This document shows, piece after piece, positions 480-23,130 of a stretch of DNA of 64,000 nt; position 1 is the first letter of the stretch, and the number at the start of each line of letters is the position of its first letter. The DNA is taken from positions 124,001-188,000 of the forward strand of contig SBGP01000082.1 of NCBI GenBank assembly GCA_006226595.1, written 5' to 3'. The translations under genes were made by a program, and so were the position numbers. The DNA is from Deltaproteobacteria bacterium (GTDB taxonomy: Bacteria; Myxococcota_A; UBA796; GCA-2862545). The notes beneath the pieces were generated by a model. It was not told the DNA's origin, did no database searches, and saw only the letters and a program-made list of their open reading frames with translations.

Positions 480-744
480 GTTCACCATCCACGCGGCGCA
501 TCCTAGCCATTCATTTTGAATGCGCAACATTCTTTTTGAAGATCTCGCATGCGGTCGTGTCTGGGTCCGCATGCAGTCCGCGTTCAAGCGATCGACGCGG
601 CGCCCCACCGCGCACCGAGCGATCGTCCCTGCGAGATCTGCATGCACCGGGCGGCAAGGCCCGGATCGCTCGCCAGGCGACTGCGCGATCTGCACGGATG
701 CCGCACACGGGCACGCCCCCGCATGCTGGAGGTGGAGGTTCCCC
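480..744. promoter_or_regulatory. 265-bp intergenic region with AT-rich promoter-like segment and hairpin
   Basis: No convincing gene is seen here. Positions 508-545 are unusually AT-rich for this genome and contain CATTC/GAATG inverted repeats, which fits a promoter region for the minus-strand lipoprotein or the plus-strand gene at 745. A perfect 8-bp inverted repeat (GCATGCGG at 547-554, CCGCATGC at 567-574, 12-nt loop) follows. The open frames across 520-744 have no coding character. Confidence 0.4.
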
Positions 745-1095: not shown

Positions 1096-1164
1096 CCGCG
1101 GAATCCGTGTGAGTGCGTAGCGCGAGCGCTCTCGCGGACTTACGCTTCCTCGCTGGGAGGCGTT

Positions 1165-2397: not shown

Positions 2398-2400
2398 GGC

Positions 2401-2820
2401 CTAGGCGAGCAGCCCCTCGACTCGCTCGAGCAACTCGGCCAGCGACCCTGCATCCAGGCTGCCCTCCAGGCTCGGCCCGAGCTCGCTCGCCACCGACGGG
2501 GGAAGTGCCCTGGCCCGCTCGAGACCGTCCTGGGTGAGCACCAGCGTGACCTTGCGACGGTCAGCCTCGACGCGCTCGCGGCGCAGCAGCCCGTCGCGCT
2601 CGAGACGGTCGACGATGCCCGTGATCGTCGAGGGGCGCAGACCCATCGACTTCGCGAGAGCCACTGGTGAAGCGCATCCATCAGCGAGCAGGCGAAGCGC
2701 GCGGACCTGAGGTGCGGTCAGCTGGTGGTCTCGGGCCACGCTGCGCTCCCGCTCGTCGAGACGGGCGCCGATGCGCGCCAGTGTGGCAAGCGCGCGCTTG
2801 CCAGCTCCCTCTTCGACCAT
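2401..2820 (-). CDS. MarR-family transcriptional regulator
   Basis: The product is a winged-helix regulator of 139 residues. It has the MarR core: a dimerisation helix, then the helix-turn-helix around VALAKSMGLRPSTITGIVDR, and a wing with RRERVEADRRKVTLVLT. I place the start at ATG 2820 because GGAGGA lies about 7 bases upstream. An in-frame GTG at 2844 would add eight residues. A near-perfect 18-bp palindrome at 2863-2880, in its promoter region, is the likely operator and implies autoregulation. No efflux or catabolic partner gene is adjacent, so the ligand cannot be guessed. Confidence 0.9.
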   Translation of the reverse strand: MVEEGAGKRALATLARIGARLDERERSVARDHQLTAPQVRALRLLADGCASPVALAKSMGLRPSTITGIVDRLERDGLLRRERVEADRRKVTLVLTQDGLERARALPPSVASELGPSLEGSLDAGSLAELLERVEGLLA

Positions 2821-2862
2821 CGTTCCTCCGCGGTCACTTGACACGTATCTTATCAGGCCGTA

Positions 2863-2880
2863 TATTTAGTGCACGAAATA
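2863..2880. promoter_or_regulatory. Putative MarR operator palindrome
   Basis: TATTTAGTGCACGAAATA is an 18-bp inverted repeat with one mismatched pair, centred on GTGCAC. It lies 43-60 bp upstream of the MarR start in an AT-rich stretch. Size, symmetry and position fit a MarR dimer site. It could also affect transcription to the right, toward the infC operon. Confidence 0.55.
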
Positions 2881-3027
2881 CTCCAGCACAAACAAGCTGA
2901 CGCCTCGTGCCCGCACGCGCACGAGACTCGCTTCGCCGGAGGTCAGGTTTCAGCCGCTGGCTGATTGCGCGCCGAGGACGTCGATGGGTCGACGCCCTCG
3001 CGCTTCAACCCTACAAGGAGGCCCGCC

Positions 3028-3255
3028 ATCGAGGTCCAGACCCGTCCCAATCCGTATTCGCTGCCCACCCGACGTTACGCCGTGCACGCCGGCGGAGAGT
3101 CCGAAGTCGTCGCTGGCCGCGACGCCGCCGTTCGACGCGCCAAGGAGCTTTCCCGAGCTCGTGGACGCGCCCGAGTCGAAGGCAAGGACACCCGCATGGA
3201 GATGCACTTCACGAAGGGCTACCTCGCCAAGTTCCGCTTCGACTCGCGCCGATAG
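3028..3255 (+). CDS. Small basic DUF2188-like protein with apparent ATC start
   Basis: An AAGGAGG ribosome binding site at 3015-3021 is followed at ideal spacing by an ATC codon at 3028 opening a 75-residue frame. No ATG, GTG or TTG is suitably placed; the nearest in-frame upstream option is TTG 2965, which would add low-quality sequence. The product begins IEVQTRPNPYSLPTRRYAVH. It has the short pattern of a DUF2188-like fold: a Tyr-Val strand, a Gly turn, an Ala-rich helix with AAVRRAKELSRARGRARV, and a final strand. It heads an apparent operon with a second such protein and infC. IF3 itself rejects non-canonical starts, so an ATC cistron here could make the operon sensitive to IF3 level (inference). 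Confidence 0.55.
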   Translation: MEVQTRPNPYSLPTRRYAVHAGGESEVVAGRDAAVRRAKELSRARGRARVEGKDTRMEMHFTKGYLAKFRFDSRR

Positions 3256-3263
3256 GAGGGCAG

Positions 3264-3650
3264 ATGTTCAACAAGAGACCCTCCGCCCGCTACAGCCTTC
3301 AGGGCCTTCCGCGACTGCGAAGCCGGCGCCGCGCTGACCGCCGCAACGCGCGCCGCGAAGCCAGAGAAGATGTGCGCAGCCAGACCGCCGCCGGTCCGAT
3401 GACGCACATCACCGAGGACACGCCGCAGGAGCCGCCGACGATCGAGGCGATGCGCGTCGTACCGCACGAAGATGGATGGGCCCTCGAGGTCGACGACATC
3501 GACGAGCCCGCCTGGGTCGTGTCGACGAAGAAGACGGCCGTGGCCAGCGCCAAGGAGAACGCGCGCTTCCACCATGCCGTGCTCTCCGTGCACACCAAGG
3601 ATGGCCAGGTCCAGCGGACCTTCGACTATGGCGATGCTCATGCGTCGTAG
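3264..3650 (+). CDS. DUF2188-domain protein
   Basis: ATG 3264 lies 4 bases after AGGAGGG, only 8 bp beyond the preceding gene. The 128-residue product has an Arg-rich N-terminal 45 residues. A C-terminal DUF2188-type domain follows (about residues 58-125), with WALEVDDIDEPAWVVSTKKT, an Ala/Lys helix, and a last strand with HTKDGQVQRTFDYG. Its 3' end overlaps the start of infC, which suggests translational coupling. An internal ATG (residue 46, MTHITED) could be an alternative start that drops the basic segment. Such domains are common and functionally uncharacterised. Confidence 0.7.
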   Translation: MFNKRPSARYSLQGLPRLRSRRRADRRNARREAREDVRSQTAAGPMTHITEDTPQEPPTIEAMRVVPHEDGWALEVDDIDEPAWVVSTKKTAVASAKENARFHHAVLSVHTKDGQVQRTFDYGDAHAS

Positions 3651-4176
3651 GCGTTCCCGTCCCGTTCCCGCCCGTCGCGACGACCCGTCGGTCAACCACG
3701 GCATCCGCGCTCCGCGCGTGCTGTTGGTCGACGAAGAAGGCCGTCGCCTCGGAGAGTTCCTCACGCCGGACGCCGTCGAGCTCGCCAAGTCGCGAGAGCT
3801 CGACCTGGTGCTGGTCGCCGCCGGCGCGAGCCCGCCCGTGGCCCGCATCGCCGACTGGGGCCGCATGAAGTACGAGCGCAAGAAGAAGGCCTCGAACTCG
3901 ACCGCCCGCGAGTCCAAGCTCAAGGAACTCAAGGTCCGTCCGAAGACCGACGACCACGACCTCTCCGTGAAGATCAAGCGCGCCGAGCGCTTCCTCGCCC
4001 GCGGTGACCGCGTGAAGGTCAGCGTGTGGTTCCGAGGCCGCGAGCACGCCCACCACGAGATCGGTGCACAGCAGTGCTACCGCATCGCCGACGCGGTGGA
4101 CGAGATCGCCAGCATCGAGACCCCTCCCCGCATGGAGGGTCGACGGATGCACATGGTGCTCGCGCCCGACAGCTAG
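3628..4176 (+). CDS. infC: Translation initiation factor IF-3
   Basis: The protein aligns by eye with IF3 along its length. The N-domain has VNHGIRAPRVLLVDEEGRRL and PPVARIADWGRMKYERKKK. The C-domain has KELKVRPKTDDHDLSVKIKR, RVKVSVWFRGREHAH and PPRMEGRRMHMVLAP. IF3 binds the 30S subunit, blocks premature 50S joining and checks start codons. Three in-frame ATGs (3628, 3634, 3640) all overlap the preceding gene, so the exact start is uncertain. Unlike most bacteria, rpmI and rplT do not follow. The neighbours are small DUF2188-like genes and a gene of unknown function, so this may be a second IF3 copy or a relocated infC. There is no C-terminal extension of the Myxococcus type. Confidence 0.93.
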   Translation: MAMLMRRRRSRPVPARRDDPSVNHGIRAPRVLLVDEEGRRLGEFLTPDAVELAKSRELDLVLVAAGASPPVARIADWGRMKYERKKKASNSTARESKLKELKVRPKTDDHDLSVKIKRAERFLARGDRVKVSVWFRGREHAHHEIGAQQCYRIADAVDEIASIETPPRMEGRRMHMVLAPDS

Positions 4177-6020: not shown

Positions 6021-6098
6021 TCCAGGCATGGGGAGTTTCCCCATGCCTTTGGTGGCCGATCACGATGATACCGTATTCATCGGCATCTCAGACCCATG

Positions 6099-6250
6099 GG
6101 GTCTGACCCTCCCCTGGGGTCAGACCCCCCTGGGGGGTCAGAGCCACCTCCGGGGTCAGACCCACCTCCGGGGTCAGAGCCACCCGCGGGGTCAGACCCA
6201 CCTCCGGGGTCAGAGCCACCTCCGGGGTCAGACCCACCTGCAGGGTCAGC
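6099..6250. repeat. 18-bp tandem repeat array with palindromic core
   Basis: A unit containing GGGGTCAGAC or GGGGTCAGAG recurs at an exact 18-bp period: 6116, 6134, 6152, 6170, 6188, 6206 and 6224, with a degenerate eighth copy at about 6242. Copies mostly alternate between GACCC and GAGCC. A first unit at about 6099-6111 is inverted (GGGGTCTGACC). GGGTCAGACCC and GGGTCTGACCC are near-palindromic, so the array can fold or bind a dimeric protein repeatedly. Because 18 is a multiple of three, several frames stay open across it (for example 6028-6294 on the plus strand), but I do not regard them as genes. Confidence 0.85.
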
Positions 6251-6348
6251 CCCCCCGAACATCCCGTGCGGACCCCTTCTCCCGAGATGCGTAGCATCTG
6301 ACAACTGTTTGCACATGTTCGGTTCGAGGAGTCGCGCTAGATGAGCGC

Positions 6349-7797
6349 ATGACTCCCGCCATCGCCACGCTCCGCGTCTACTCCACCGGCGACCTCCGCG
6401 AGGACGGCGACTACGTCGTGTACTGGATGATCGCCGCACGCCGCACGCACTACAGCCACGCACTGCAGCACGCCGCGCACCTGTGCGAGGCACTCGGCAA
6501 GCCCCTGGTGGTGCTGGAGGCGATTCGCGCCGACTCCCGCTGGGCCAGCGAGCGCGTGCACCGCTACGTGATCCAGGGAATGGCCGACAACGCCGCCCGC
6601 TTCGCGGACAAGGGCGTCGCCTATCACCCCTACGTCGAGCCGAGCCACGGTGACGGCACGGGCTTGCTCGAAGCCCTCGCCGAGCGGGCGTGTCTGGTCG
6701 TCACCGACACCTTCCCCTCGCACTTCCTGCCGCGCATGGTCGCGGCCGTACGCGAACGCCTGGACGTGCGCCTCGACGAAGTCGACGGCAACGGCGTCAT
6801 CCCGCTGCGGGCGCCGGATCGCGACTTCACCGTCGCCCACAGCTTCCGCCGCTGGCTCCAGAAGAACGTCGCCGAGCTCTGGGACCCGCCGGTCGCCGAC
6901 CCGCTCACCCGAGCCACCGCCGGCGCCACGATTCCGGGCGCGGTCCGAGAGCGCTGGCCCGCCTTCGCCGACGGCTCCCCCACCGGCGACGAGCCCCTCC
7001 CCGCTCCGCTAGCCGCCTCACTCGCGGGCACACCCGGCCCCATCCCGGAGCGCGGTGGCCCCGCCGCCGCCCGCGAGGCCTGGCGCACGTTCTGGGAAGG
7101 CAAGTTCGAGCGCTATCACGAAGACCGCTCCCACCCCGACGACGGCGTACAGAGCGGGCTCTCGGGCTGGTTGCACTTCGGACACCTCGGCGTCCACGAG
7201 GTCCTCGCCGACGTCCTCGCCGACTGGGACCCAGCGACGGCCCGCAAAGCGACCGGCAAGCGCGAGGGCTGGTGGGGTCTGCCCGAGGCGTCCGAGGCCT
7301 TCCTCGACGAGATCCTCACCTGGCGTGAGATCGGCTACATCCAGGCCTTTCGCGAGGGCGAGAACTTCGCCCACTACCAGAGCCTGCCGGCTTGGGCGCG
7401 CGAGAGCCTGGCCGAGCATGCAGGCGACCCCCGCGAGGTCTACACCCTGGAGCAGCTGGCCGAATCCCGCACCGACGACGTGCTGTGGAACGCCGCCCAG
7501 CGTGAGCTCGTGCGCACGGGCCGCATCCACAATGCCCTGCGCATGCTGTGGGGCAAGAAGGTGCTCCAGTGGACCGCCTCTCCACAGCAGGCCTTCGCGT
7601 TCCTGGTGGAGCTCAACAATCGCTACGCCATCGACGGGCGCAACCCGAACTCGTACAGCGGCATCGGCTGGGTGCTCGGCCGCTTCGACCGCGCGTGGGG
7701 CCCGGAAAGGCCTATCTTCGGCAAGGTCCGCTACATGACCAGCGACTCGGCCCGCCGAAAGTGGCGGGTCAAGCAGTACCTCAGCCGCTTTGGCTGA
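6349..7797 (+). CDS. Class II CPD photolyase
   Basis: The 482-residue product matches class II deoxyribodipyrimidine photolyases. It has YWMIAARRTHYSHAL near the start, SGLSGWLHFGHLGVHEV, the FAD-region blocks WREIGYIQAF and HNALRMLWGKKVLQW, and the conserved DGRNPNSYSGIGWVLGRFDR followed by PIFGKVRYM. It uses FADH- and blue light to split cyclobutane pyrimidine dimers. Length is typical. The start is ATG 6349; a nearby ATG at 6341 is out of frame. The 18-bp repeat array lies just upstream and could affect its expression. A convergent nitroreductase gene begins 4 bp after its stop. Confidence 0.95.
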   Translation: MTPAIATLRVYSTGDLREDGDYVVYWMIAARRTHYSHALQHAAHLCEALGKPLVVLEAIRADSRWASERVHRYVIQGMADNAARFADKGVAYHPYVEPSHGDGTGLLEALAERACLVVTDTFPSHFLPRMVAAVRERLDVRLDEVDGNGVIPLRAPDRDFTVAHSFRRWLQKNVAELWDPPVADPLTRATAGATIPGAVRERWPAFADGSPTGDEPLPAPLAASLAGTPGPIPERGGPAAAREAWRTFWEGKFERYHEDRSHPDDGVQSGLSGWLHFGHLGVHEVLADVLADWDPATARKATGKREGWWGLPEASEAFLDEILTWREIGYIQAFREGENFAHYQSLPAWARESLAEHAGDPREVYTLEQLAESRTDDVLWNAAQRELVRTGRIHNALRMLWGKKVLQWTASPQQAFAFLVELNNRYAIDGRNPNSYSGIGWVLGRFDRAWGPERPIFGKVRYMTSDSARRKWRVKQYLSRFG

Positions 7798-7800
7798 TCG

Positions 7801-8388
7801 CTACTTGAGGACCTCGCCCCACTCGCCGCCGTAGACGATGAGATCGAAGGGCAGGCGCTCGCGGATGCGGCGCTCGCTCTTGCGCAGCTCCTCGTTGAGC
7901 GTGTCCGGGTCGCCGGGCCAGCCCATGGCGATCATCGCGATGGGCTCGACGTCCTCGGGCAGCCCGAGGTCACGAGCGCGCTCTGCGGAGAAGCCGCCCA
8001 TCTGGTGGACCTCGAGGCCCTCGGCCACCGCCTGCACGGTGAGCCACGCGGCCGCCTGACCCGCGTCGTAGTGCGCCGTGACGTTGGTCTTCCCGTTCTT
8101 GCGATAGCGCGTAGACGCCGCGATGAGCATCAGCACCGGGGCCTTGGCCGCCCAGGTCTGGTTCCAGTCGCTGAGCAGCGAGACGAGCCGCGCGTGGGAC
8201 TCGGGGGCACGCGCCGAGCACGCCACCAGGAAGCGCCACGGCTGCTCGTTGAAGGCAGACGGCGCCCACCGGGCCGCCTCGAGCACCCGACGCACCACCT
8301 CGAAGGGCACGATCTCGGACGAGAAGGCGCGAGGGCTCCATCGCTCGGCGACGAACGGGTGGACCGGGACGTCAGTGGGATTGCGCAT
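7801..8388 (-). CDS. Nitroreductase-family FMN protein
   Basis: The 195-residue product is a short nitroreductase-fold flavoprotein. The N-terminal RWSPRAFS supplies phosphate-binding Arg/Ser residues. Then come ARWAPSAFNEQPWRF (the FMN-binding Ser-x-x-Asn-x-Gln-Pro block), DAGQAAAWLTVQA, and a C-terminal MIAMGWPGD. Such enzymes use NAD(P)H to reduce nitro groups, quinones or similar acceptors; the physiological substrate is unknown. It is cytoplasmic and transcribed alone toward the photolyase gene. Confidence 0.88.
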   Translation of the reverse strand: MRNPTDVPVHPFVAERWSPRAFSSEIVPFEVVRRVLEAARWAPSAFNEQPWRFLVACSARAPESHARLVSLLSDWNQTWAAKAPVLMLIAASTRYRKNGKTNVTAHYDAGQAAAWLTVQAVAEGLEVHQMGGFSAERARDLGLPEDVEPIAMIAMGWPGDPDTLNEELRKSERRIRERLPFDLIVYGGEWGEVLK

Positions 8389-8486
8389 GTCGGCTCCGTG
8401 GAGGCCACGTAGTCATGGGGCTCACCGCCGTCGCCGCGACACCGCGTTGCGTGGCTGGCACTCGTCAGCAAGCCCCTCGGGGACGC

Positions 8487-9260
8487 TCATTCCCCGCGAG
8501 TGAACGCCAGCATGTAGTTCTCGGTCAGCCCCACATCGAGGACTTGCTTGCCCGTGAAGCCCGCCGCCTCGATCTCGGAGGCGAACACGTCCTGACCGCC
8601 ACGCACGTGCTCGAGGATCCACTCGCTGGAGCCCTCCTCGCGCACGAAGTCGATGACGAACAGCTTGCCGCCGGGCTTGAGCGCCGCGCGGATGCTCGCC
8701 AGCGTGGGCTCGACGTACTCGAAGTGGTGGTAGGTGTCGCAGATGAACACCGCGTCGACCGAGCCCTCGGGCAGGTTCGACGAGCGCTCGCCGGCCTCGA
8801 TGGTCTGCACCTGCGCGTAGCCGGCGTCCGACGCCATCGCGCCGAGGTGCTCGAGAAACTTCGGAGAGATGTCGACGGCGAAGACCTTGCCTTCGGCGCC
8901 GACCGCCTCGGCAAAGGGCTTCATGTACAGGCCGGTGCCCGCGCCGATGTCGGCGACCGCCGCGCCTGGCTGCAGGTTCATCGCCGCGACGATGGCCGCC
9001 TGGTTGGCGACGACCTCCCGCGACTCGGCGCCGAAGCGCTCGACCCACTTGTCCACGTCCATCTCGGGATCGAGGAAGTTGTCGTTGATGCCAGGCTTCG
9101 CGCTCGCGTTGGCCGGCGAGGCCTCCGCGGCGTCCGGCGGCTCGGCGACAGGCGCAGTCTCCGCGGGCTCGGTGACCGCGGGTTCGGCCGCCGACTCCGG
9201 GGGCGTGGTGGGTCGGCCGCAGCCGATGGCGAGAAGCAGGAAGAAGGTCGTCGTACGCAT
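8487..9260 (-). CDS. Lipoprotein-anchored class I SAM methyltransferase
   Basis: The 257-residue product begins with a lipoprotein signal (MRTTTFFLLLAIGC) and a Pro/Ala/Glu-rich linker of about 40 residues. A class I methyltransferase domain follows: motif I is VADIGAGTGLYMKPF (about residues 102-116), VFAVDIS lies about 22 residues on, then DAVFICDTYHHF and LKPGGKLFVIDF. This family methylates small molecules or proteins with S-adenosylmethionine. A lipidated, exported methyltransferase is odd because SAM is not known to be available in the periplasm. Either the signal is not processed, the fold has lost SAM chemistry, or a periplasmic SAM source exists. Confidence 0.85.
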   Translation of the reverse strand: MRTTTFFLLLAIGCGRPTTPPESAAEPAVTEPAETAPVAEPPDAAEASPANASAKPGINDNFLDPEMDVDKWVERFGAESREVVANQAAIVAAMNLQPGAAVADIGAGTGLYMKPFAEAVGAEGKVFAVDISPKFLEHLGAMASDAGYAQVQTIEAGERSSNLPEGSVDAVFICDTYHHFEYVEPTLASIRAALKPGGKLFVIDFVREEGSSEWILEHVRGGQDVFASEIEAAGFTGKQVLDVGLTENYMLAFTRGE

Positions 9261-9353
9261 GGCCGCGCATGTAGCACTGCCGATTCGCCCGGAAAAGGGC
9301 CACTCACCCAGACCTCACCAGGCCGGGAGGTCGCCACGCCCCGGCCCCTCGGA

Positions 9354-13292: not shown

Positions 13293-13598
13293 ATGCGCCT
13301 GGCTTCCCTGCTGCTCCTGCTCACCGCCTGTGCCGATCAGCCCCTCGACGAGGAGCTGTTCGCCGAGATCGCCGCGCTCGATGGCGATGCGGAGGCCGGG
13401 GCGCTCGTGTACCCGGACTCGTGCGCGAGCTGCCACGGGGAAGACGGGACTGGCGGCCACCACGAGGACCTGCCCGGCAAGACCGCGGACCAGGCCATCG
13501 AGGCGATGCTCACCGGCCCGTGGGGCATGCCCGCCTTCGACGCGCAGTTCGACAACCAGACCATCGCCGACATCGCCGCCTTCGTCGAGACGCTGTGA
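13293..13598 (+). CDS. Lipoprotein c-type cytochrome
   Basis: The 101-residue product has a lipoprotein signal (MRLASLLLLLTAC) and one haem-binding motif, C44-A-S-C-H48, with a likely axial Met in GPWGMPAFDAQF. A terminal helix (TIADIAAFVETL) is typical of class I cytochromes c. It would sit lipid-anchored in the periplasm as a small electron carrier. A second, similar cytochrome starts within its stop codon (GTGA overlap), so the two are made together. The pair lies 60 bp after ipdB and might share its transcript. Confidence 0.88.
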   Translation: MRLASLLLLLTACADQPLDEELFAEIAALDGDAEAGALVYPDSCASCHGEDGTGGHHEDLPGKTADQAIEAMLTGPWGMPAFDAQFDNQTIADIAAFVETL

Positions 13599-13936
13599 GC
13601 CGCGTCCTCGCCGTCGCCGCGCTGCTGGTCGGGCTGACCGGCTGCCTGCTCACGCCGCACAGCGACACACCGCTCGATACCGGGCTGTACGCCGAGGTCA
13701 TGGCGCTCTCGGGGGACCCCGTCGCGGGCGAGGAACCCTACGAGGCGAACTGCCGTCGCTGCCACGGCCGCGAAGCCACCGGCACGCTCCGCGGCGTGCC
13801 CATCGCGAGCTACGACGTCGACGAGATCGTCGAGGTCATGCTCACCGGGCCCGGCCACATGCCGACCTTCGACGACCTCGAGCCGCAGGTCGTCGCCGAC
13901 ATCGCCGCGTACGTGAACAGCCTCGAGCCGCAGTAG
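13595..13936 (+). CDS. Second lipoprotein c-type cytochrome
   Basis: GTG 13595 overlaps the stop of the first cytochrome. The 113-residue product has a lipobox in LLVGLTGC, one haem motif C53-R-R-C-H57, and a likely Met ligand in GPGHMPTFDDL. It resembles its neighbour over the whole haem domain, which indicates a tandem duplication. It probably works with the first as a periplasmic electron relay; donor and acceptor are not evident. Confidence 0.87.
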   Translation: MSRVLAVAALLVGLTGCLLTPHSDTPLDTGLYAEVMALSGDPVAGEEPYEANCRRCHGREATGTLRGVPIASYDVDEIVEVMLTGPGHMPTFDDLEPQVVADIAAYVNSLEPQ

Positions 13937-15100
13937 TCAGCGCAACCACGACGCGAACAGGCTCAGCCGCAGCTCGCGCACGACCGCCTCGTCCGCGACC
14001 GGCTCGTCGCGAACCAGGGCCATCAGGGCATCGCGCCAGGCGTCGTCGAGTCCGAGCTCGGCCTGCCGGCGTTGCACGAGGGACAGCACCTGATCGATGG
14101 GCGCTCGCTCGGGGTACCACGCGGCGAGCAGCGCCTCGACCGCCGCGCGGTCCGGCGAACACAGGAGTGCACCGGCAATCTCCCGGTCTTCGACCTCGGT
14201 GAGCACCTGCCGCTGGCGCAGCAGCATGCGACGGTTCATGCGGCGACGGCCGGCGGTGGCGAGCATGTCGCCCAGCTCGTCGTCCTCCCAGGTCACACTC
14301 GCGAAGGCCCGAGCGACGGCGTCGTCCAGCGACGACAGGGACGACGGTCCCCGCGACCAGTACTCGGGAAGGACCTCGGCGAACAGCTGGTACACGAGCA
14401 GCGGGTCGGCGCCCTCACAGATCTCGGCGAGGCGATGCTGCCCGTCCTCGACCCCCGCGGACGCGAGGAAGTGCACGAGCTGCAGGCGGCGCGTGGTCAG
14501 CATCGAGAACTGGCTCGGATACTGGCCGTCGTAGGCCAATCCCGGCGCATCGAAGGAACGCTGGGGCAGCAGCTCCGGCTCGCCGTAGGTCCGCACCACG
14601 ACGGTCGCCGTGGGGTGATGCAGGTGGAACAGGCCGTGAATCAGGCCCGCACCGGGCGCAATCGGCCACACGTCCCCTGGCAGCAGACGCTCCGCACCGA
14701 GGAAGGCGAGCCTCCCGAGGCCGATGTCGCCGACCTTTCGGTCCTCGTGGAACGCGTAGCGGCTCTGGAGCGACGACCCCGCGAGCAGCTGGAACGCGCC
14801 CGTGAACGCGTGCTCGTGGATCTGCGTGCTACTCGACGCCCACAGGTTCACGTCGATGCAGAAGTCGCTCCCTCGGTACACGGTGACCGGCGGCTCGCCG
14901 AAGGTGGTGCCCATGTCGCGCTGACGCACGAAGCGGGCGTCGGCCACGGTCGAGACCCAGCGAAGCAGCTCGTCCAGCGAGGTGTGCGACGGCGACGGCC
15001 GCTGCACGAGGTGATGCACCGCGACCTCGGGAAGCGTGCGCGCATCGCCCCTGTAGTCCGCATCGATGCGGTCTCCGAGGTCCTTGAAGTATGGAATCAT
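13937..15100 (-). CDS. Cupin-like hypothetical protein
   Basis: The 387-residue soluble protein has a central beta-rich region with clustered His residues: STQIHEHAFTGAFQLLAGSS (about 93-111) and GLIHGLFHLHHPTATVVVRTYG (about 153-174). This resembles a cupin metal site. The C-terminal 200 residues are helical and Arg-rich. I recognise no specific family. Its ATG at 15100 lies only 17 bp from the start of the divergent SlyD-TylF gene, so the two promoters must overlap coding sequence, or the real start here lies further in. A link to that methyltransferase is possible from position only. Confidence 0.65.
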   Translation of the reverse strand: MIPYFKDLGDRIDADYRGDARTLPEVAVHHLVQRPSPSHTSLDELLRWVSTVADARFVRQRDMGTTFGEPPVTVYRGSDFCIDVNLWASSSTQIHEHAFTGAFQLLAGSSLQSRYAFHEDRKVGDIGLGRLAFLGAERLLPGDVWPIAPGAGLIHGLFHLHHPTATVVVRTYGEPELLPQRSFDAPGLAYDGQYPSQFSMLTTRRLQLVHFLASAGVEDGQHRLAEICEGADPLLVYQLFAEVLPEYWSRGPSSLSSLDDAVARAFASVTWEDDELGDMLATAGRRRMNRRMLLRQRQVLTEVEDREIAGALLCSPDRAAVEALLAAWYPERAPIDQVLSLVQRRQAELGLDDAWRDALMALVRDEPVADEAVVRELRLSLFASWLR

Positions 15101-15117
15101 CGCGCTCTGGAGGGCAG

Positions 15118-16500
15118 GTGCTCATCGAGGACGGCCACGTCGTAGCGTACACCTTGCGCATACAAGACCCCGCGGGCGAGGTCGTGTACGCGACCGATGC
15201 GCAGGCCCCGGACACCTGCCTCCACGGCAGGTCGCCCGTGATCGCCGCCGTGCAGCGGGCGCTCGCCGGACGCGCCGCGGGTGACCGGATCGCCGTCCGC
15301 GCCGAGCCCGAGCAGGCCTTCGGTCCACATCGTCCCGAGCTCGTGCGCGCCGTGCCGCGCTCCGAGTGGCCCGCCGAGGTCCCCGCGGTGCCGGGCCCGT
15401 TCGCGTTCGCCATCGCCCGACCCGATGCCGCACCCGCCGAGGTCCGCGGCGCCATCGTCGCGGTGGACGACGCGTACGTGCACATCGACCAGAACGCGTG
15501 GATGGCGGGTGTCGCGCTCGACCTCGAGCTCGAGGTGCTGAGCGTGCGCGAGGCGACGCCCGCCGAGCAACGCGCCGGTCAGGCCCTGGTCTTTCCGTGG
15601 GACCTGCTCGCCGAGCGGCCTGCAGACGGGCTCCTCGGGGAACGACTCGCCAAGGTCGCCGGCGACAGCATGACCCCGCCCTTTCCCTGGGGTCAGGTCC
15701 TGTTCGCGCATCTGCTACCCCGCCTCGCGCACCTCGAAGGCGACGTCGCCGAGCTCGGGGTGGGCCTCGGCGGCATGAGCATGTTCCTCGCGCTCCACCT
15801 TCCCGAGCGTACGGTCTACGCACTCGACACCTACGAGGGCCTGCCGCCCGCCGCACCCGACCAGGACAATCCGTACTTCACCGAGGGCCTGTACGGCGGC
15901 GATGACCTGCTCGCGCGCCTGCACGCGCGCCTCGATGCACTCGGCCTCCACAACGTCCGCCCGGTGAAGGGCCGCTTCGCGGACACCGTCGACCAGCTGC
16001 CGCCGCGCCTGTGCTTCGCGCACCTCGACTCCGACCTCTACGCCTCGGTCCTCGACTCGCTGGAGGCCACCTGGGACCGTCTCGAAGACGGCGGCATCCT
16101 CGGCATCGACGACTTCTTCCACCCGAGTCAGGGCGCCGCCCGGGCGCTGGCGACCTTCTGCAACCGGCGCGGGCTGAACCCGGTCGTGCACGTGGTGTTC
16201 CCCTACTCCGTGTTCCTCGTGAAGGGCGGGCCGCAAGCCCCACGCGGCAGCCGCTGCCACGACGGCTTCGCGTACAGCTTCAACTGGCTGCGCACCGAGC
16301 CCCGCCTGCGCGCCGCCGTGACCGCCTCGGTCGCGCGCGCCTGGCCCGGCACCGCTCCCCACCGCGACGCATGCACGCTGCTGGCTGTGCTCGATGCGCC
16401 CCACGACAGGCCCGAGGACATCTACGACTACTGGCGCGCGATGAGCGGGTTCTGGCAGCAGATCGCGGCGGGCTTCTTCCATCCGGACCGCATCGGGTAG
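15118..16500 (+). CDS. SlyD-type FKBP prolyl isomerase fused to a TylF-type O-methyltransferase
   Basis: GTG 15118 follows GGAGGGCAG. An ATG at 15091 is in frame but would overlap the divergent gene. Residues about 1-155 follow SlyD: GHVVAYTLRIQDPAGEVV, LHGRSPVIAAVQRALAG, AEPEQAFGPHRPELVRAVPR, and a chaperone-loop-like insert ending VHIDQNAWMAGVALDLELEV. Residues about 190-400 are a macrocin/TylF O-methyltransferase: DVAELGVGLGGMSMFLAL (SAM site), VYALDTYEGLPPA, LCFAHLDSDLYASVLDSLEA and GGILGIDDFFH (metal-binding Asp pair). Such enzymes methylate sugar hydroxyls. The total length, 460 residues, fits one continuous fusion. I know of no described SlyD-TylF protein. Confidence 0.85.
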   Translation: MLIEDGHVVAYTLRIQDPAGEVVYATDAQAPDTCLHGRSPVIAAVQRALAGRAAGDRIAVRAEPEQAFGPHRPELVRAVPRSEWPAEVPAVPGPFAFAIARPDAAPAEVRGAIVAVDDAYVHIDQNAWMAGVALDLELEVLSVREATPAEQRAGQALVFPWDLLAERPADGLLGERLAKVAGDSMTPPFPWGQVLFAHLLPRLAHLEGDVAELGVGLGGMSMFLALHLPERTVYALDTYEGLPPAAPDQDNPYFTEGLYGGDDLLARLHARLDALGLHNVRPVKGRFADTVDQLPPRLCFAHLDSDLYASVLDSLEATWDRLEDGGILGIDDFFHPSQGAARALATFCNRRGLNPVVHVVFPYSVFLVKGGPQAPRGSRCHDGFAYSFNWLRTEPRLRAAVTASVARAWPGTAPHRDACTLLAVLDAPHDRPEDIYDYWRAMSGFWQQIAAGFFHPDRIG

Positions 16501-16590: not shown

Positions 16591-17310
16591 GTGAGCGTGT
16601 GGAAGTCCGTGGGACGGCTGTTTGTGATTCCCGACGAGGAGGGCCAGGGCGGCGCGCCATCCGGCGATGTCGACCTCGACAAGCTGCTCGCCGAGACCCG
16701 CGCCATGGCCGGGGACATTCCGGATGACCTGCCGGAAGCGAGCGAGGCGCCGCCCGCCGCTCCGCCGATGCCTCCACCGCCGACCGTCGTCCCCGAGGTC
16801 GACGAAGGCGCGCCGCTCGCGGACCTGTACAGCGAGGCTGGCGTTCCCGCGTCACCGTACACGGCCGAGAAGTTGCTCAAGGTGATGGACGGCCTCGCCG
16901 CCCTCGCCCCCAACGTGCGCCACGCGGCGATCGCCGCCATGGATGCCGCCGAGGACAGCTGGACCATCGAGGACGCGGTGCTCGACGCACAACGCAAGTC
17001 CGACGTCCTCAAGTCCGAGGCCAAGCGCCTGACCGAGGTCGAGCGCGCCGCCGAGGCCAGTGCCGCCGCGAAGACCGCGGACGCCGAGAAGCACCTGTCC
17101 GAGGCCACCGAGACCATCCGCCAGCAGATCGCCGAGATGGAGCAGCTGCTCCAGGCCGAGGCCGCGTCCGTCGCGAGCCTCAAGGCCGACATCGCCGCCG
17201 AGCTGGAGAACACGCGCCAGGCCTGCCGCCGACGCGCTCAGACCCTTCGCAGCGAGCTGGACCGCCTCTCCATCGTGGTTACCTCGTTCGCCTCTACTTC
17301 CCAGGACTGA
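16591..17310 (+). CDS. Coiled-coil protein, first gene of the ABC-OmpA operon
   Basis: GTG 16591 follows GGAGGGCAG. The 239-residue product has an acidic N-terminus, a Pro-rich linker (about residues 50-70), a small helical segment PYTAEKLLKVMDGLAALAPNVRHAAIAAM, and a long coiled coil from about 125 to 235 rich in Ala, Glu, Lys and Gln. There is no signal peptide or membrane segment, so it is probably cytoplasmic. It sits 5 bp before the solute-binding/OmpA gene and leads a tightly coupled six-gene operon. No enzymatic motif is seen; a scaffold or stress-envelope role is possible. Confidence 0.72.
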   Translation: MSVWKSVGRLFVIPDEEGQGGAPSGDVDLDKLLAETRAMAGDIPDDLPEASEAPPAAPPMPPPPTVVPEVDEGAPLADLYSEAGVPASPYTAEKLLKVMDGLAALAPNVRHAAIAAMDAAEDSWTIEDAVLDAQRKSDVLKSEAKRLTEVERAAEASAAAKTADAEKHLSEATETIRQQIAEMEQLLQAEAASVASLKADIAAELENTRQACRRRAQTLRSELDRLSIVVTSFASTSQD

Positions 17311-17315
17311 CCCCC

Positions 17316-18971
17316 ATGGCCAAGCTCACCACCCTGTCCAAGGTCCTCATCGGCGTCGCGGTGATCTCCGTCGCCTGCGCCGGTTCCTACGGCCTCGCGC
17401 GCATCGGCGGCCTGCTCGACGGCGACGGCGGCGTCGCGACCCCCGGCAAGCCCGGCGGTGGACTCGCCGGACTCGTCGGCGGCGGCGCCACGGGCCCCCT
17501 CGGCTCGCCTGGCAACCCGCTCAAGGTCAGCATCGTCTCGTTCCACGGCTATGCGCCCGCCCTCGTGGCCAACGGCAACAGCCTGACCACGACCCAGGGC
17601 TCCATCTACGAGAAGGAGGGCCTGAACGTCGAGTTCGTCATCCAGGACGACATCCCGACCCTGCCCACCATCTTCGAGTCCGGCGCCGCCCACTGCGCGT
17701 GGCGTACCAGCGACTTCTGGGCCCAGGAGCATCCCTCGCTCCGCGGCAACGGCCTCGATGCCAAGGCCGTGATGGTCGTCGACAACACCCGCGGCGGTGA
17801 CGCCATCATCGCCAAGGACCCGAGCATCCAGTCCGTCGAGGACCTGCCGGGTCACAGCGTCGCGCTGCTCCAGTTCACGCCCTCCGACGGCCTGTTCATC
17901 GACGCCGTCGCGAACTCGTCCCTCTCGGGTCGCAAGAAGCAGCAGATCGAGACCGTGTACATCAACCCGGACGAGGGCACCGCCGGCGTGCGCGCCGCGT
18001 TCGAGAGCGGCCAGGCCGATGCCGCCGTGCTCTGGGACCCGGACCTCTCCCTGGCCCTGCGCGCCCCGGGCGCTCACGTCGTGTACTCGACGGCGACCGC
18101 GACCAACCTCATCTACGACGTCATGGTCTGCGACACGAAGTACCTCAACGATCCGCAGCACGAGGACGTGTTCCAGGACTTCGTCACCGGCTGGATGAAG
18201 GGCGTCGAGGCCGCCGAGGCCAACCCCGACCAGGCCGTCGAAGCGCTCAAGAACACCGAGGAGTTCTTCGCGCTGCTCGCCAAGGACGAGGGCGACGACT
18301 TCGTGAAGGGCCTGTTCAAGAACGTGAAGTGGACGGGCCTCGAGGAGAACGCCCGCATCCTCGGTCGCGCTGGCGGCATGAACCACTTCGAGCGCGTGTA
18401 CCGCGAGTTCGACCGCATCTACCGGGCCGCCGGCTACATCGCCGACCCGAACGCGCCGGTCATCAACCCGTCCGATGCCTTCGACTACCGCTTCATCGAC
18501 AAGCTGCTCGCTGACGACGCCGCCGCCAAGGAAGCCGCGGCCAAGCCCGAGTTCACGTTCACCGAGGCCGAGCGCGACAAGGTCGCCGGCAAGAAGGCCG
18601 ACGTGACCAAGGCCGTCGAGGTCAACTTCTCCAGCGGCTCCGCGGAGCTCAGCAAGCGCGCGATGCAGACCATCGACAACGAGATGATCCCGCTCATCGA
18701 CAGCATGGGCAACGCGTACTTCGAGGTCAGCGGCAACACCGACTCGACCGGCTCGAACGCCGCGAACAAGGCCCTGTCGCTGAAGCGCGCCAAGGCGGTC
18801 ACCGACTACCTCACCCAGCAGTGGGAGGTCGATGCGGCCCGCCTCATCGTCGTCGGCAACGGCGAGGAGAGCCCGATCTGCGACGAGTCGAAGCCCGAGA
18901 GCGAAGGCGTCGACCTCGAGGGCTGCCGCGCGATGAACCGCACCACCCGCGTCGCGGTCCTCGCGCGCTGA
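17316..18971 (+). CDS. ABC solute-binding protein fused to OmpA domain
   Basis: The 551-residue product has an N-terminal hydrophobic signal or anchor (about residues 9-28). A type II periplasmic binding domain of the nitrate/taurine/thiamine-precursor kind follows (about 65-400: SIYEKEGLNVEFVIQDD, GGDAIIAKDPSIQSVEDLPG, VALLQFTPSDGLFIDAV). The C-terminal OmpA/MotB domain (about 430-551) has VNFSSGSAELS, NTDSTGSNAANKALSLKRAK and NRTTRVAV, which carry the peptidoglycan-contacting Asp and Arg. So the receptor for the importer encoded downstream should be tethered to the cell wall. The permease gene starts inside its stop codon (TGATG). Confidence 0.88.
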   Translation: MAKLTTLSKVLIGVAVISVACAGSYGLARIGGLLDGDGGVATPGKPGGGLAGLVGGGATGPLGSPGNPLKVSIVSFHGYAPALVANGNSLTTTQGSIYEKEGLNVEFVIQDDIPTLPTIFESGAAHCAWRTSDFWAQEHPSLRGNGLDAKAVMVVDNTRGGDAIIAKDPSIQSVEDLPGHSVALLQFTPSDGLFIDAVANSSLSGRKKQQIETVYINPDEGTAGVRAAFESGQADAAVLWDPDLSLALRAPGAHVVYSTATATNLIYDVMVCDTKYLNDPQHEDVFQDFVTGWMKGVEAAEANPDQAVEALKNTEEFFALLAKDEGDDFVKGLFKNVKWTGLEENARILGRAGGMNHFERVYREFDRIYRAAGYIADPNAPVINPSDAFDYRFIDKLLADDAAAKEAAAKPEFTFTEAERDKVAGKKADVTKAVEVNFSSGSAELSKRAMQTIDNEMIPLIDSMGNAYFEVSGNTDSTGSNAANKALSLKRAKAVTDYLTQQWEVDAARLIVVGNGEESPICDESKPESEGVDLEGCRAMNRTTRVAVLAR

Positions 18972-19762
18972 TGTTCAATCCGCACGAGGTCATCTCCACA
19001 CGGACGCGCCAGGCGCTCGGCGCCGTCGCCATCCTCGGCGTGCTCGCCGTGTGGAGTGCGCTCGCCGGTCTCGACATCGTCAGCCAGGCCAAGCTCCCCG
19101 CGCCGTGGGAAGTCGCGAGCGCGCTCGGGAACCTGGCGATGCCCAACGACAAGGGCGAGAGCCTGCTGTTCGCGGCCACCTGGGCCTCGCTGCAGCGCGT
19201 GGTGCTCGCCGGCGTGCTCGTGGTCGTCACCGGCGTGCCGCTCGGCGTGCTCATGGGCGCCAGCCCGCGCATCAACGCCCTGCTCTCGCCGCTCGTCGAC
19301 CCGTTTCGCAGCGCGCCCATCGTCGCCGTCCTCCCCATCCTCGTGATGTGGCTGGGCATCGGCGAGCTGATGAAGACGACGTTCCTGTGGGCTGGCGCCG
19401 TCGTGTTCCTCGTGCCCATGGTCCGCGACGCCATCCAGGCGGTGCCGCGCACCTACTACGTGAAGGCCAAGGACCTCGGGGCGAGCGACTTCGAGGCCAT
19501 CTGGCACTCGGTGTTCCCGATGGCCAAGCCGCGCATCGCCGACGCGATGATCACCGCGGTCAGCGTCGAGTGGACCTACATCACCGTCGCCGAGTACGTG
19601 AACGCCAAGGTCGGCCTCGGGCAGCTCATCCAGAACGCCCGGCGCTTCTCGGCGATGGACCAGGTGTTTGCCGGCATCTTCGTGATCATCGTGCTCGCGC
19701 TGATCACCTACCAGAGCATGGTCGCCATCAAGCGCTGGCGCTACCCGTGGGAGACCGAGTGA
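18971..19762 (+). CDS. ABC transporter permease, NitT/TauT type
   Basis: The 263-residue membrane protein has about six hydrophobic segments. The permease EAA loop is YYVKAKDLGASDFEAIWHSVFPMAKPRI (about residues 158-185), where it docks on the ATPase. The BPD_transp_1 region resembles SsuC/TauC/NrtB permeases. It starts in the stop of the solute-binding/OmpA gene and overlaps the ATPase gene by 4 bp, so all three transporter parts are co-translated. The substrate is unknown; small oxyanions or organosulfur compounds are typical of relatives. Confidence 0.9.
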   Translation: MFNPHEVISTRTRQALGAVAILGVLAVWSALAGLDIVSQAKLPAPWEVASALGNLAMPNDKGESLLFAATWASLQRVVLAGVLVVVTGVPLGVLMGASPRINALLSPLVDPFRSAPIVAVLPILVMWLGIGELMKTTFLWAGAVVFLVPMVRDAIQAVPRTYYVKAKDLGASDFEAIWHSVFPMAKPRIADAMITAVSVEWTYITVAEYVNAKVGLGQLIQNARRFSAMDQVFAGIFVIIVLALITYQSMVAIKRWRYPWETE

Positions 19763-20586
19763 GCGTCCGCGTCGAGCTCAAGGACATCGTCCAGGAGTAC
19801 CCCTCCGCCGACGGCGAGGGCATCGTCCGGGTCGTCGACGGGGTCAACCTCGTCTACGACAAGCCGGGCATCCACATGCTGCTCGGCCCGTCCGGCTGCG
19901 GAAAGTCCACCGTGCTCAAGCTCATGGGCGGCGTGCGCCCGGACGGCGTGGTGTCGCCGAGCTCGGGCGAGGTGCTCATCGACGGCAAGCCGTGCGACGG
20001 ACCGCATGACGACGCGGTGATGGTGTTCCAGCAGTACGCCAACTTCCCGCACCTCTCCGCCTACGACAACGTCGCCTTCCCGTTCAAGCTCAAGCTGTGG
20101 AAGAACCGCGTGCCGGCTGGCGAGCGCGATGCGCGCATCAAGGAGGTGCTCACCGCCGTCGGACTTGGCGACAAGCTGCACCACCGCCCCTCACAGCTCT
20201 CCGGTGGCCAGAACCAGCGACTCGCGCTCGCCCAGGCCCTGGTCCTGCGCCCGCGCATCCTGCTCATGGACGAGCCTTTCGGCGCCCTCGACGCCCAGAC
20301 CCGGGCCGAGATGCAGGACCTGCTCGTCGACCTGTGGCGCGAGCAGCAGTGCCTGATCGTGTTCGTGACCCACGACATCACCGAGGCCTTGCTGCTCGGC
20401 GACCGGGTCACCATCCTCTCGACCAAGCCTGCCCGCGTGGCCCGCGAGTTCGACATCACCGAGCCCCGGCCGCGCAGCGACCTGTGGCTGCGAAGCACCG
20501 AAGCCAACCGCCTCGAGAGCGAGATCCTCGACCTGCTCAAGGAAGGCAACGTGCGCGGCGGCGGCCAGGTGCGAGTGACGATCTGA
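19759..20586 (+). CDS. ABC transporter ATP-binding protein
   Basis: GTG 19759 overlaps the permease stop (GTGA). The 275-residue ATPase has Walker A LLGPSGCGKST, a Q-loop VFQQYANFPHL, the ABC signature LSGGQNQRLALAQAL, Walker B ILLMDEPFGALDAQT and the switch His in VFVTHDITEAL. It is close to SsuB/TauB/NrtD ATPases. It energises uptake through the permease at 18971 with the OmpA-tethered binding protein. The next gene starts within its stop codon (TGATG). Confidence 0.95.
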   Translation: MSVRVELKDIVQEYPSADGEGIVRVVDGVNLVYDKPGIHMLLGPSGCGKSTVLKLMGGVRPDGVVSPSSGEVLIDGKPCDGPHDDAVMVFQQYANFPHLSAYDNVAFPFKLKLWKNRVPAGERDARIKEVLTAVGLGDKLHHRPSQLSGGQNQRLALAQALVLRPRILLMDEPFGALDAQTRAEMQDLLVDLWREQQCLIVFVTHDITEALLLGDRVTILSTKPARVAREFDITEPRPRSDLWLRSTEANRLESEILDLLKEGNVRGGGQVRVTI

Positions 20587-21479
20587 TGGGCGACGCCCGC
20601 AGCGAATGGGACCGCATCTCCGGGCTGTCGGACGAGCAGCAGGAGGCGGTGTCCTACCTCAGGGAGATGGTCACCCACGAGGTCAGCCAGGTCGGCTTCC
20701 TCGGGTCGGTCATCCTCGGGAGTGCGCTGTCGATTCCCTTCGGCTTCGCGGTCGCCGCGATTCCCCTGGTCGGCTTCGTCGGCGCGGGCACCGTCGCGGC
20801 CCTGTTCATTCCCGAGTCCCCGGTGTTCCGCCACCGCGTCGACCAGCGCAAGAAGCGCGAGCGCCGCACCGCCGTTCGCGAGGCCCTGATCGACAAGATC
20901 CAGGCCGCCGGCGAGAAGCTCCACGGGCGCCGCAAGGACGACCTCATGCGCTATGGCGAGGACCACGCCCGCATGATGGAGCGCGTGAAGGCGCTGAAGA
21001 AGATCGCCGCGAGCAGCCGCAGCCAGCTCTCGGACGTCGACGTCGATCGCCTCGACGAGGCCACCGTCGACTACCTGCGGCTCGTGTACTCGCGCCTGGT
21101 GCTCTGGGACCGGCTCGACGCCTCCCGCACCCACGAGGTCGAGGAGCAGCTGGAGACCATCGAGACCCAGCTCGAGAAGACGACCTACGCCTCGGACAAG
21201 AAGAGCCTCGAGCGCGCCAAGGCCGACCTCGAGCGCATCCTCGAGCGCCGCTCGCGCCTGCCCGCCCAGGATGCAGCGACCGCCGCGCAGCTCACCGCGA
21301 TGGCGGAGACCTTCGAGGACCTGTACCACCGTATCCAGACCGACCCGAACGCCGGCGTCTCCGACTACCTGTCCGAGGCCACCGAGCGACTCAACATCGA
21401 GGATGAGCTCCAGTACGCCGTCGAAGACGAGCTGGCCGAGCTCACCCGCAAGCGCCAGGCGCGGAGAGTGTCCCAATGA
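20586..21479 (+). CDS. Membrane-anchored helical protein of the ABC-OmpA operon
   Basis: The 297-residue product has one long hydrophobic hairpin (about residues 37-75, VGFLGSVILGSALSIPFGF then VAAIPLVGFVGAGTVAALFI). About 200 residues of charged helix with coiled-coil character follow (KKRERRTAVREALIDKIQAAG; TIETQLEKTTYASDKKSLERAKADLERIL). The helical part should face the cytoplasm. It is locked into the operon by overlaps on both sides. No family is recognised. It may link the importer or the coiled-coil protein at 16591 to the inner membrane (inference). Confidence 0.7.
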   Translation: MGDARSEWDRISGLSDEQQEAVSYLREMVTHEVSQVGFLGSVILGSALSIPFGFAVAAIPLVGFVGAGTVAALFIPESPVFRHRVDQRKKRERRTAVREALIDKIQAAGEKLHGRRKDDLMRYGEDHARMMERVKALKKIAASSRSQLSDVDVDRLDEATVDYLRLVYSRLVLWDRLDASRTHEVEEQLETIETQLEKTTYASDKKSLERAKADLERILERRSRLPAQDAATAAQLTAMAETFEDLYHRIQTDPNAGVSDYLSEATERLNIEDELQYAVEDELAELTRKRQARRVSQ

Positions 21480-22339
21480 CGACGATGACCACGGAGGAGA
21501 CCCGCGCCCTGCTTGGGAAGGAGCAGCTCGACGCCGCCTTCCCGATCGCCGAGGCGAACGCGCACGCCCGCGCCGCCATCGAACACGCGGCCCAGGCCGG
21601 AGGCGAGACGCTGCTCCGCTTCCTGATGCGCTACACCTCGTGGAATGGACTGTTCGGCGCCGGCGTGGCCACGCTCTCCGGCAAGGTCGGCCGAAGCCAG
21701 GGCCTGTTCCTCGACCCCGAAGAGACCGTGCCCTACGTCGCCGACCGCAGCGTGTACATCGCGAGCTTCTTGTTCGACGCCGCCCGCGACGAGTTCGACG
21801 ACAGCGCCACCGACCACCGCGACACCCACCGCTGCCTGGCCCAGGCCACGCTCAAGGGCGCCATCGACGTGCTCGGCATCGACGTGAGCAGCCCCGAGTG
21901 GGCCGAGATGCCTCTGTGGCTCGAGGCCGTGCGCGGCCGCGTCGCCACCGGCTACGGCGCCGCCAGCGCGGACAGCCGCGACGCGATGTTCCGAGCCATG
22001 GGCTACCACCTCGGCTCCGAAGTGCTCGCTGACGCCGAGTTCTCGATGATCGACCAGGCCCTGCGTCGCCATCAGCCCGACTTCGTGACCGCGCTCGAGA
22101 ACCGCACCGTGCGTATCGTGAAGAAGGACCACAACGCCTACTACTGGGTCGCCATCCACTCCGGGCACGGCGGCGGCGTCGAGGCCGACCACTTCAAGTG
22201 GGCGGTGCGCGGCGTGCGTGTCGCCCTGCGCTACACGCCCGAGAAGCGCCGCGAGCGCGCCCGCGAGGCCATCTACGACGGCTTCCGCGCATTCGGCGCC
22301 GACCACCACCTGTTCTTCCGCCACGTGAACGACGCCTAG
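21476..22339 (+). CDS. Hypothetical helical protein, possibly haem-oxygenase-like diiron fold
   Basis: ATG 21476 overlaps the previous stop (ATGA). The 287-residue protein is soluble, helical, and rich in His, Asp and Glu. The block FRAMGYHLGSEVLADAEFSMID (about 165-185), together with DHRDTHRC (about 117-124) and VAIHSGHGGGVEADHFKWA (about 221-239), recalls the spaced His/Glu/Asp ligands of haem-oxygenase-like diiron proteins. This is only a by-eye resemblance. It ends the six-gene operon. Its stop overlaps that of the convergent XRE regulator by 4 bp. An enzyme acting on the imported compound is an attractive guess. Confidence 0.65.
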   Translation: MTTMTTEETRALLGKEQLDAAFPIAEANAHARAAIEHAAQAGGETLLRFLMRYTSWNGLFGAGVATLSGKVGRSQGLFLDPEETVPYVADRSVYIASFLFDAARDEFDDSATDHRDTHRCLAQATLKGAIDVLGIDVSSPEWAEMPLWLEAVRGRVATGYGAASADSRDAMFRAMGYHLGSEVLADAEFSMIDQALRRHQPDFVTALENRTVRIVKKDHNAYYWVAIHSGHGGGVEADHFKWAVRGVRVALRYTPEKRRERAREAIYDGFRAFGADHHLFFRHVNDA

Positions 22340-23130
22340 ACGTCGAGCGCGGGCACCACGACCTGGCGGACGAACGCCTCGGTCTCCGGGGTCGCTGGGA
22401 AGTAGCTCTCGATGCGCAGCTCCGAGAGCGTGACGTCCACTGGCGTCCCGAGCGTGGTCACGGTCGTGAACATCGACAGCTCCTGGCCCATCACCCGCAG
22501 GTTCATCGGCACGACAAGCGCACTCGCCTCCTCCGGGTCGTCGCGACGCCACGACGCCGGCACGCCCGGGACCGCGAGCAGCTCCTCGAAGAGCGCGAAC
22601 AGCGCCTCGTCCTGGGTGATGATCGCCTCGCGATGCAGCCGCTGCAGGGTGTCGCGGGCCAGCTCCTCCCAGTTCGTGATCACCTCGCGCAGGCCCTTGC
22701 CCGTGAACAGAAGGCGCAGCAGGTTGTCGCCGGGCAGCACGGGCGAGCCGAGCATCACGCCGAGCAGCTCGAAGGCGCGATTGACCTGAATCACGTGCCA
22801 GGTGCGGTCGAGCACCACCGCGCCGTAGGGCTCGGCCTGCTTGAGCAGGAAGTCCAGAGCGAGCCGCACCGAGGCCATCTCCGGCGCGTCGAGGTCGTGC
22901 TGGCGGTAGGCGGGCGCAAAGCCTGCCGCCATGAGCAGCGTGTTCCGGGCGCGCAGCGGCATGTCCATCGCCGAGCCCAGCACGAGCACCATCTCCTGGC
23001 TCGGCCGCGCCTTGCCCGTCTCCAGGCAGGACAGATGGCGGGTCGAGACCTCCGCCGCCTCGGCGAGGTCCTGCTGGGTCATGCGGCGCTTGCGGCGCCA
23101 GCCGCGGATCAGGCCTCCGACGTCGGGCAT
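22336..23130 (-). CDS. XRE-family regulator with MmyB ligand-binding domain
   Basis: The 264-residue product starts with an XRE helix-turn-helix (about residues 7-65: RRKRRMTQQDLAEAAEVSTRHLSCLETGKARPS region). A MmyB-like PAS-type ligand-binding domain follows (about 100-264: PYGAVVLDRTWHVIQVNRAF, LPGDNLLRLLF, WEELARDTLQRLHREAI). Relatives bind fatty acid-like ligands and control an adjacent divergent gene. Here the divergent neighbour is the DUF2834 protein at 23241. The 111-bp gap between them holds two palindromes (23174-23204) that should be its operators. Confidence 0.9.
   Translation of the reverse strand: MPDVGGLIRGWRRKRRMTQQDLAEAAEVSTRHLSCLETGKARPSQEMVLVLGSAMDMPLRARNTLLMAAGFAPAYRQHDLDAPEMASVRLALDFLLKQAEPYGAVVLDRTWHVIQVNRAFELLGVMLGSPVLPGDNLLRLLFTGKGLREVITNWEELARDTLQRLHREAIITQDEALFALFEELLAVPGVPASWRRDDPEEASALVVPMNLRVMGQELSMFTTVTTLGTPVDVTLSELRIESYFPATPETEAFVRQVVVPALDV

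Follow-up and report, generated by a model that had tools for sequence, protein, structure and literature searches.

The six genes A to F, encoded on the plus strand at positions 16591-22339 of a 64,000-nucleotide stretch of DNA (the window) from a 7.2-Mb Myxococcota genome, form an operon that is real, conserved and partly described before. We read genes A to E, with moderate confidence, as that half of an envelope-maintenance machine which comprises transporter and receptor; the second half would consist of PspA and an AAA+ ATPase, often with TerB, and F would act on the solute. This reading was adopted because the genes for PspA and the ATPase adjoin the operon in most relatives and are present, rearranged, in a distant version.

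Gene A (16591-17310, 239 aa) has a GTG start codon preceded by GGAGG and is separated by 5 nt from gene B (17316-18971, 551 aa). All following genes overlap: B and C (18971-19762, 263 aa) by 1 nt, C and D (19759-20586, 275 aa, GTG start) by 4 nt, D and E (20586-21479, 297 aa) by 1 nt, and E and F (21476-22339, 287 aa) by 4 nt. These coordinates agree with the preliminary description of this DNA, in which the six genes were said to be joined by overlaps or a 5-bp gap. No consensus promoter or terminator exceeding shuffle level was found around the operon, and no riboswitch or other Rfam match was obtained within the window. Upstream, a TylF-like methyltransferase gene (15091-16500, plus strand), with a weak FKBP-like N-terminal part, ends 90 nt before A; it is not a repeated neighbour at related loci. 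Downstream, a gene for an MmyB-type HTH regulator (22336-23130, minus strand; PF17765, E = 1e-31) is convergent and shares 4 nt with the end of F. Elsewhere in the window, two small c-type cytochrome-like frames with CASCHG and CRRCHG motifs, apparently in tandem, were noted at 13293-13936 (plus strand), and a short ORF at 6028-6294 (plus strand) consists mostly of an RGQ(T/S)H(L/P) repeat.

Protein B is composed of an N-terminal hydrophobic segment (residues 10-28), an NMT1/SsuA-like solute-binding domain (approximately residues 60-400; PF09084, E = 2.3e-8, 34.6 bits at a cut-off of 20.5) and a C-terminal OmpA domain (PF00691, E = 7e-16, 58.7 bits). C is a permease of the NitT/TauT type, TauC-like (BPD_transp_1, PF00528, E = 9e-23, 81.4 bits), and D is an ATPase of the same type, NrtCD-like (ABC_tran, PF00005, E = 2e-27, 96.8 bits), in which both the Walker A motif GPSGCGKST and the LSGGQ motif are intact. 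By these profile matches, B, C and D are assigned to a NitT/TauT-type ABC importer, a class in which permease and ATPase are each present in two copies. The importer-type ABC system with an OmpA-fused receptor that had been proposed earlier was thus recovered.

The families of the solute-binding protein, permease and ATPase are shared with the NitT/TauT importers SsuABC, TauABC and NrtABCD. The operon differs from these in the OmpA domain and N-terminal anchor on the binding protein, in the constant partners A and E, and in scores far under the substrate cut-offs. No substrate-specific equivalog model (taurine, nitrate, sulfonate, urea/guanidine) was reached at its cut-off by B, C or D: bit scores were 72 against 163.5 for TIGR01728, 61 against 334 for TIGR03427, 135 against 342 for TauC, and 184 against 292 for NrtCD. 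The matches therefore did not resolve into a known nitrate or taurine system, the outcome that the preliminary description had named as adverse to its view. An ordinary NitT/TauT-type importer for a sulfonate, an amine, a guanidine-like compound or similar was nevertheless weighed, in which the receptor is immobilised, F oxidises the nutrient, A and E are assembly factors, and the link to PspA and the AAA+ ATPase reflects co-expression under membrane load. The profiles nearest to B, C and D, namely SsuA, TauC, NrtCD and the urea-carboxylase-associated binding protein, speak for it, as does the occurrence of F's fold in several small-molecule oxidases; the missed equivalog cut-offs, which extend to every known substrate, speak against it, and we consider it unlikely.

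In OmpA structures, diaminopimelate is bound by an Asp and an Arg 15 residues apart, the peptidoglycan-binding pair. D476 and R491 of B, which we take to be this pair, are retained by 97% or more of the 65 core B sequences and by 90% of the 10 distant ones. Pocket-type residues (T131, D133, D156, T188-P189, W240-x-P242, S258-T259 and D268) are likewise kept, even in the distant group. Because both sets are conserved in distant B as well, ligand binding and wall binding by B are probably both ancient and shared.

Relatives were collected by scanning 84,980 species genomes with the alignment of B, resulting in 69 loci. One of these, from a Spartobacteria genome (L098), matched at 31% over 90 residues and was dropped as a false relative. 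Carriers found in the scan include Accumulibacter, Propionivibrio, Acidovorax and other Comamonadaceae, Lysobacteraceae, Tahibacter, Panacagrimonas, Desulfuromonadales and Myxococcota, among others. The conserved order is not due to chance, since other genera, families and phyla show it again with proteins that are approximately 35-65% identical. Linkage was counted at the 50 loci for which 4.5 kb or more of sequence was available downstream of E. Genes A to E were present in the order A-B-C-D-E at all 50, which belong to Myxococcota, Pseudomonadota and Thermodesulfobacteriota; restriction to one strain, the other adverse outcome considered beforehand, was accordingly not observed. At almost every locus A directly precedes B; in Ca. 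Propionivibrio aalborgensis (L041) it was found after TerB and not before B. Within Myxococcota the operon is sporadic: of 237 genomes sampled, 5, including that of the window, encode a strong B, and every one of these carries A-F or A-E in unchanged order. Neither catabolic genes nor a transcription regulator were repeated beside the operon at related loci, and the former result again argues against a plain nutrient importer.

In Pseudomonadota and Desulfuromonadales, neighbour clustering and profile searches revealed up to three further genes on the same strand after E (or F). Their products matched PspA/IM30 (PF04012, 4e-17), AAA+ (PF00004, 6e-24) and TerB (PF05099, 2e-10) in Pfam, and the solved structures nearest to the AAA+ ATPase are those of p97/Cdc48. 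The genes for PspA and the ATPase came next at 43 of the 50 long-flank loci, and TerB was present at 33. Acidovorax soli and Tahibacter aquaticus, for example, carry the series A-B-C-D-E-F-PspA-AAA. The seven loci without PspA and AAA+ genes are from Myxococcota or unassigned bins, and six of them are the same contigs as those of the Myxococcota sample genomes. In the tree of B, all PspA-linked loci were grouped in a single 52-row clade, and the Myxococcota members, including the window, branched outside it. A distant version, with the order PspA-B'-C'-D'-E'-AAA-TerB and a B' approximately 35% identical to B, is carried by three genomes (L111-L113) from a different Myxococcota family; other genomes carry TerB-PspA-AAA alone or A'-B'-C'-D'-E' alone. 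As two distinct gene orders hold the same parts, a functional link of A-E with PspA and the ATPase is far more probable than a frozen accident. The two orders also count against a nutrient importer that is merely co-expressed with PspA.

PspA and AAA+ genes are absent from the neighbourhood of the operon in the window. Orthologues were found elsewhere in the same genome, for the ATPase on contig C1 (C1:219551-221341, 554 bits to the profile of the operon AAA+ proteins) and for PspA on contig C2 (C2:20020-20736, scoring 235 bits with the profile of the operon PspA proteins). Ten diverse TerB matches were obtained in this genome, none of which was assigned as orthologue. Nearly all members of the window's order have PspA and the ATPase, whether they carry A-E or not, so their presence in the genome is permissive and does not prove a partnership. 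One genome (G217), which also counts against the envelope-machine reading, has A-F with no such PspA or AAA+ ATPase at the thresholds used. About 4 kb upstream of the AAA+ orthologue, two proteins are encoded, one flotillin/band-7-like and the other a YqiJ/NfeD-like membrane protein, another membrane-maintenance pair (L108, G000:C1:212000-230000; pair at positions 299-3765 of that region, AAA+ orthologue at 7549-9345). Directly after PspA, a gene for a 133-aa protein without assigned family was noted (L109, G000:C2:12000-28000; PspA and this gene together within positions 7937-9141 of that region).

These data bear on the possibility that A-F of Myxococcota works alone, untied to PspA, and that the linkage is relevant to Pseudomonadota and neighbours alone. 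The absence of adjacent PspA and AAA+ genes from the Myxococcota main-clade members with enough flank, as well as the position of the Myxococcota members outside the 52-row clade, are in line with it. Against it stand the distant version, which has PspA and the ATPase in the operon, and the finding that, of the five sampled Myxococcota genomes with a strong B, four encode both. On this evidence, independence from PspA is judged highly improbable.

Operons consisting of an ABC ATPase, a permease, PBPB-OmpA, PspA and AAA were briefly described by Ravi et al. 2024 in a survey of PSP systems (PMC11237479), with OGG56892.1 as example, and membrane remodelling was suggested to be linked with solute transport. 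'Snf7 homologs with a TM segment', reported there in such operons, may correspond to E. The window's relatives and the published operons have in common the ABC ATPase, permease, SBP-OmpA, PspA, a TM-bearing helical protein and the AAA+ ATPase; in the window the ABC ATPase, permease and SBP-OmpA stand together in one operon, but PspA and AAA+ genes are not adjacent. The main text of the survey contains neither gene A, F (no 'oxygenase') nor the stand-alone Myxococcota form, and no experimental study of the system was found in the literature searched, which included few subscription papers and no supplementary files. The preliminary remark that the operon could not be matched to a described system was hence correct in part only, as a few sentences of PMC11237479 do describe such operons. 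What is new beyond that paper is the constant gene A, the optional oxidase-like F, the usual presence of TerB, the split Myxococcota arrangement, the second gene order, and the conservation of the pocket-type and predicted wall-binding residues.

Gene A encodes a soluble, charged, coiled-coil-like helical protein whose conserved central block reads IY..AGVP.SP(Y/F)PAEKLL..LdgL.A...R..A..AMDAAD..W.I.D...DA.RK. E has an N-terminal pair of hydrophobic segments (residues 41-59 and 57-75) followed by long helices, predicted to form an elongated helical bundle. The A, E and F proteins of the window matched no Pfam or NCBIfam family, and Pfam searches with every family member of A, E and F returned matches at chance level only. 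Pairwise hhalign comparison among A, E, PspA, AAA, TerB and F gave no relation, E against the operon PspA reaching a probability of 1.8%, and PspA/Snf7 was absent among the 25 Pfam families listed for 51 E members. The model of E (pLDDT 84) yielded BAR-type helical bundles as top structural matches, with Z scores of 8-10 that lie within helical-protein noise; no PspA, Vipp1 or Snf7 chain was among the listed structural matches, and a PDB sequence search with the E profile returned chance-level matches only. Assignment of E as an ESCRT-III/Snf7 protein was dropped, sequence giving no support and the fold match being non-specific. A phage-defence role of A, E and F was also discarded: they had no match in PADLOC, and B matches ZorB via its OmpA domain only. 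By sequence, A and E are classed as two unnamed protein families that are constant companions of B-C-D, which bears out the two structural-looking partners of the earlier account.

F was modelled by AlphaFold (pLDDT 86). All top Foldseek matches were heme-oxygenase-like proteins (UndA, CADD, PolF, HamA), at weak E values of approximately 3e-3 and above, and VIA-align superposed the model on HrmI, CADD and PolF with Z scores of 17-19 across 210-240 residues (HrmI: Z 18.9, 3.1 Å, 220 residues; CADD: Z 18.2, 3.0 Å, 213 residues). F is therefore predicted to have the seven-helix heme-oxygenase-like fold. Residues E106, H118, E182, H228, E236 and H239 are invariant in 22 of 22 F sequences and follow the order E-H-E-H-(D/E)-H, the metal motif that in heme-oxygenase-like di-metal oxidases sits on three core helices (PMC11363339). 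While fold and residue order resemble those of CADD, UndA, HrmI, PolF, BesC and SznF, F differs in its identity of approximately 8-13%, in the lack of a Pfam match and in an insert between candidate ligands 4 and 5, where H228-x7-E236-x2-H239 replaces the usual H-x3-(D/E)-x2-H. A PDB sequence search with the F profile returned nothing. Judging from model and candidate motif, F is probably an O2-dependent di-metal oxidase with an accessory function, and the possible diiron protein of the preliminary description is supported in this form. A TenA/thiamine-salvage enzyme was rejected: the fold is common to both, but Pfam gave no match to TENA and the window yielded no riboswitch.

F was present at 17 of the 50 long-flank loci and thus missing at most of them. 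Besides its position after E, it was found before A (L073, Rhodoferax), after TerB (L068, Rubrivivax) and 1-5 kb away (L031, L075); because of this varying position, its association with the operon is regarded as real but optional. In L068 and L073, F lacks the His at position 114 and retains the six candidate metal ligands. The suggested uptake-and-processing machine is consequently upheld for the importer and not for F as a core component, the usual partners being PspA and the AAA+ ATPase, which the preliminary description could not take in because their genes are on other contigs here. That A and E are constant, yet F is missing at most loci, does not suit a nutrient importer either.

In the preferred model, an envelope-maintenance machine, B would be anchored in the inner membrane by its predicted N-terminal segment and grip the wall with its OmpA domain, which would give the receptor a fixed position between the two. 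E, with its membrane hairpin and long helices, and A would dock PspA at the membrane patch of B, and the AAA+ ATPase would recycle PspA, perhaps also E, like Vps4 with ESCRT-III. Membrane remodelling or repair would in this way depend on a small solute being bound or imported, and F, as accessory O2-dependent metal oxidase, would probably act on the imported solute or its product. In an alternative model, B-C-D would sense flux or ligand, comparable to BceAB-type transporters, and signal damage of wall and membrane through E and A to PspA, while transporting little on balance. The presumed fixation of the receptor to the wall, the PspA and TerB neighbours and the constant helical partners fit such a stress sensor, but the ATPase D and permease C are both complete and the neighbourhood is without a repeated transcription regulator; we consider it quite unlikely. 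For the envelope-maintenance machine, a more specific form can be put forward tentatively, as a possible but doubtful proposal: the transporter, with its receptor fixed between inner membrane and wall, gates remodelling by PspA and the AAA+ ATPase, the solute or the distance between wall and membrane controls local repair, and F, representing a new heme-oxygenase-like oxidase clade, makes or destroys the signalling solute.

PspA is a homologue of ESCRT-III, and to our knowledge the control of its assembly is not understood in most bacteria. The linked loci resemble ESCRT-III/Vps4 and PspA-AAA pairs in that a p97/Vps4-type AAA+ ATPase is paired with an ESCRT-III homologue, and differ from them by the addition of an ABC transporter with a predicted wall-binding receptor. 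With PspA, a p97/Vps4-like ATPase and an ABC transporter that is presumably bound to the wall, this conserved gene set represents a concrete, testable complex in many bacteria, and its carriers include the polyphosphate-accumulating Accumulibacter of wastewater plants as well as the cultivable Acidovorax, Tahibacter and Lysobacteraceae. A and E emerge as protein families without a name, and the F clade would constitute a new, unnamed group of probable di-metal oxidases. Taken together, the operon looks more like a little-noticed machine for envelope maintenance than a usual pump for nutrients.
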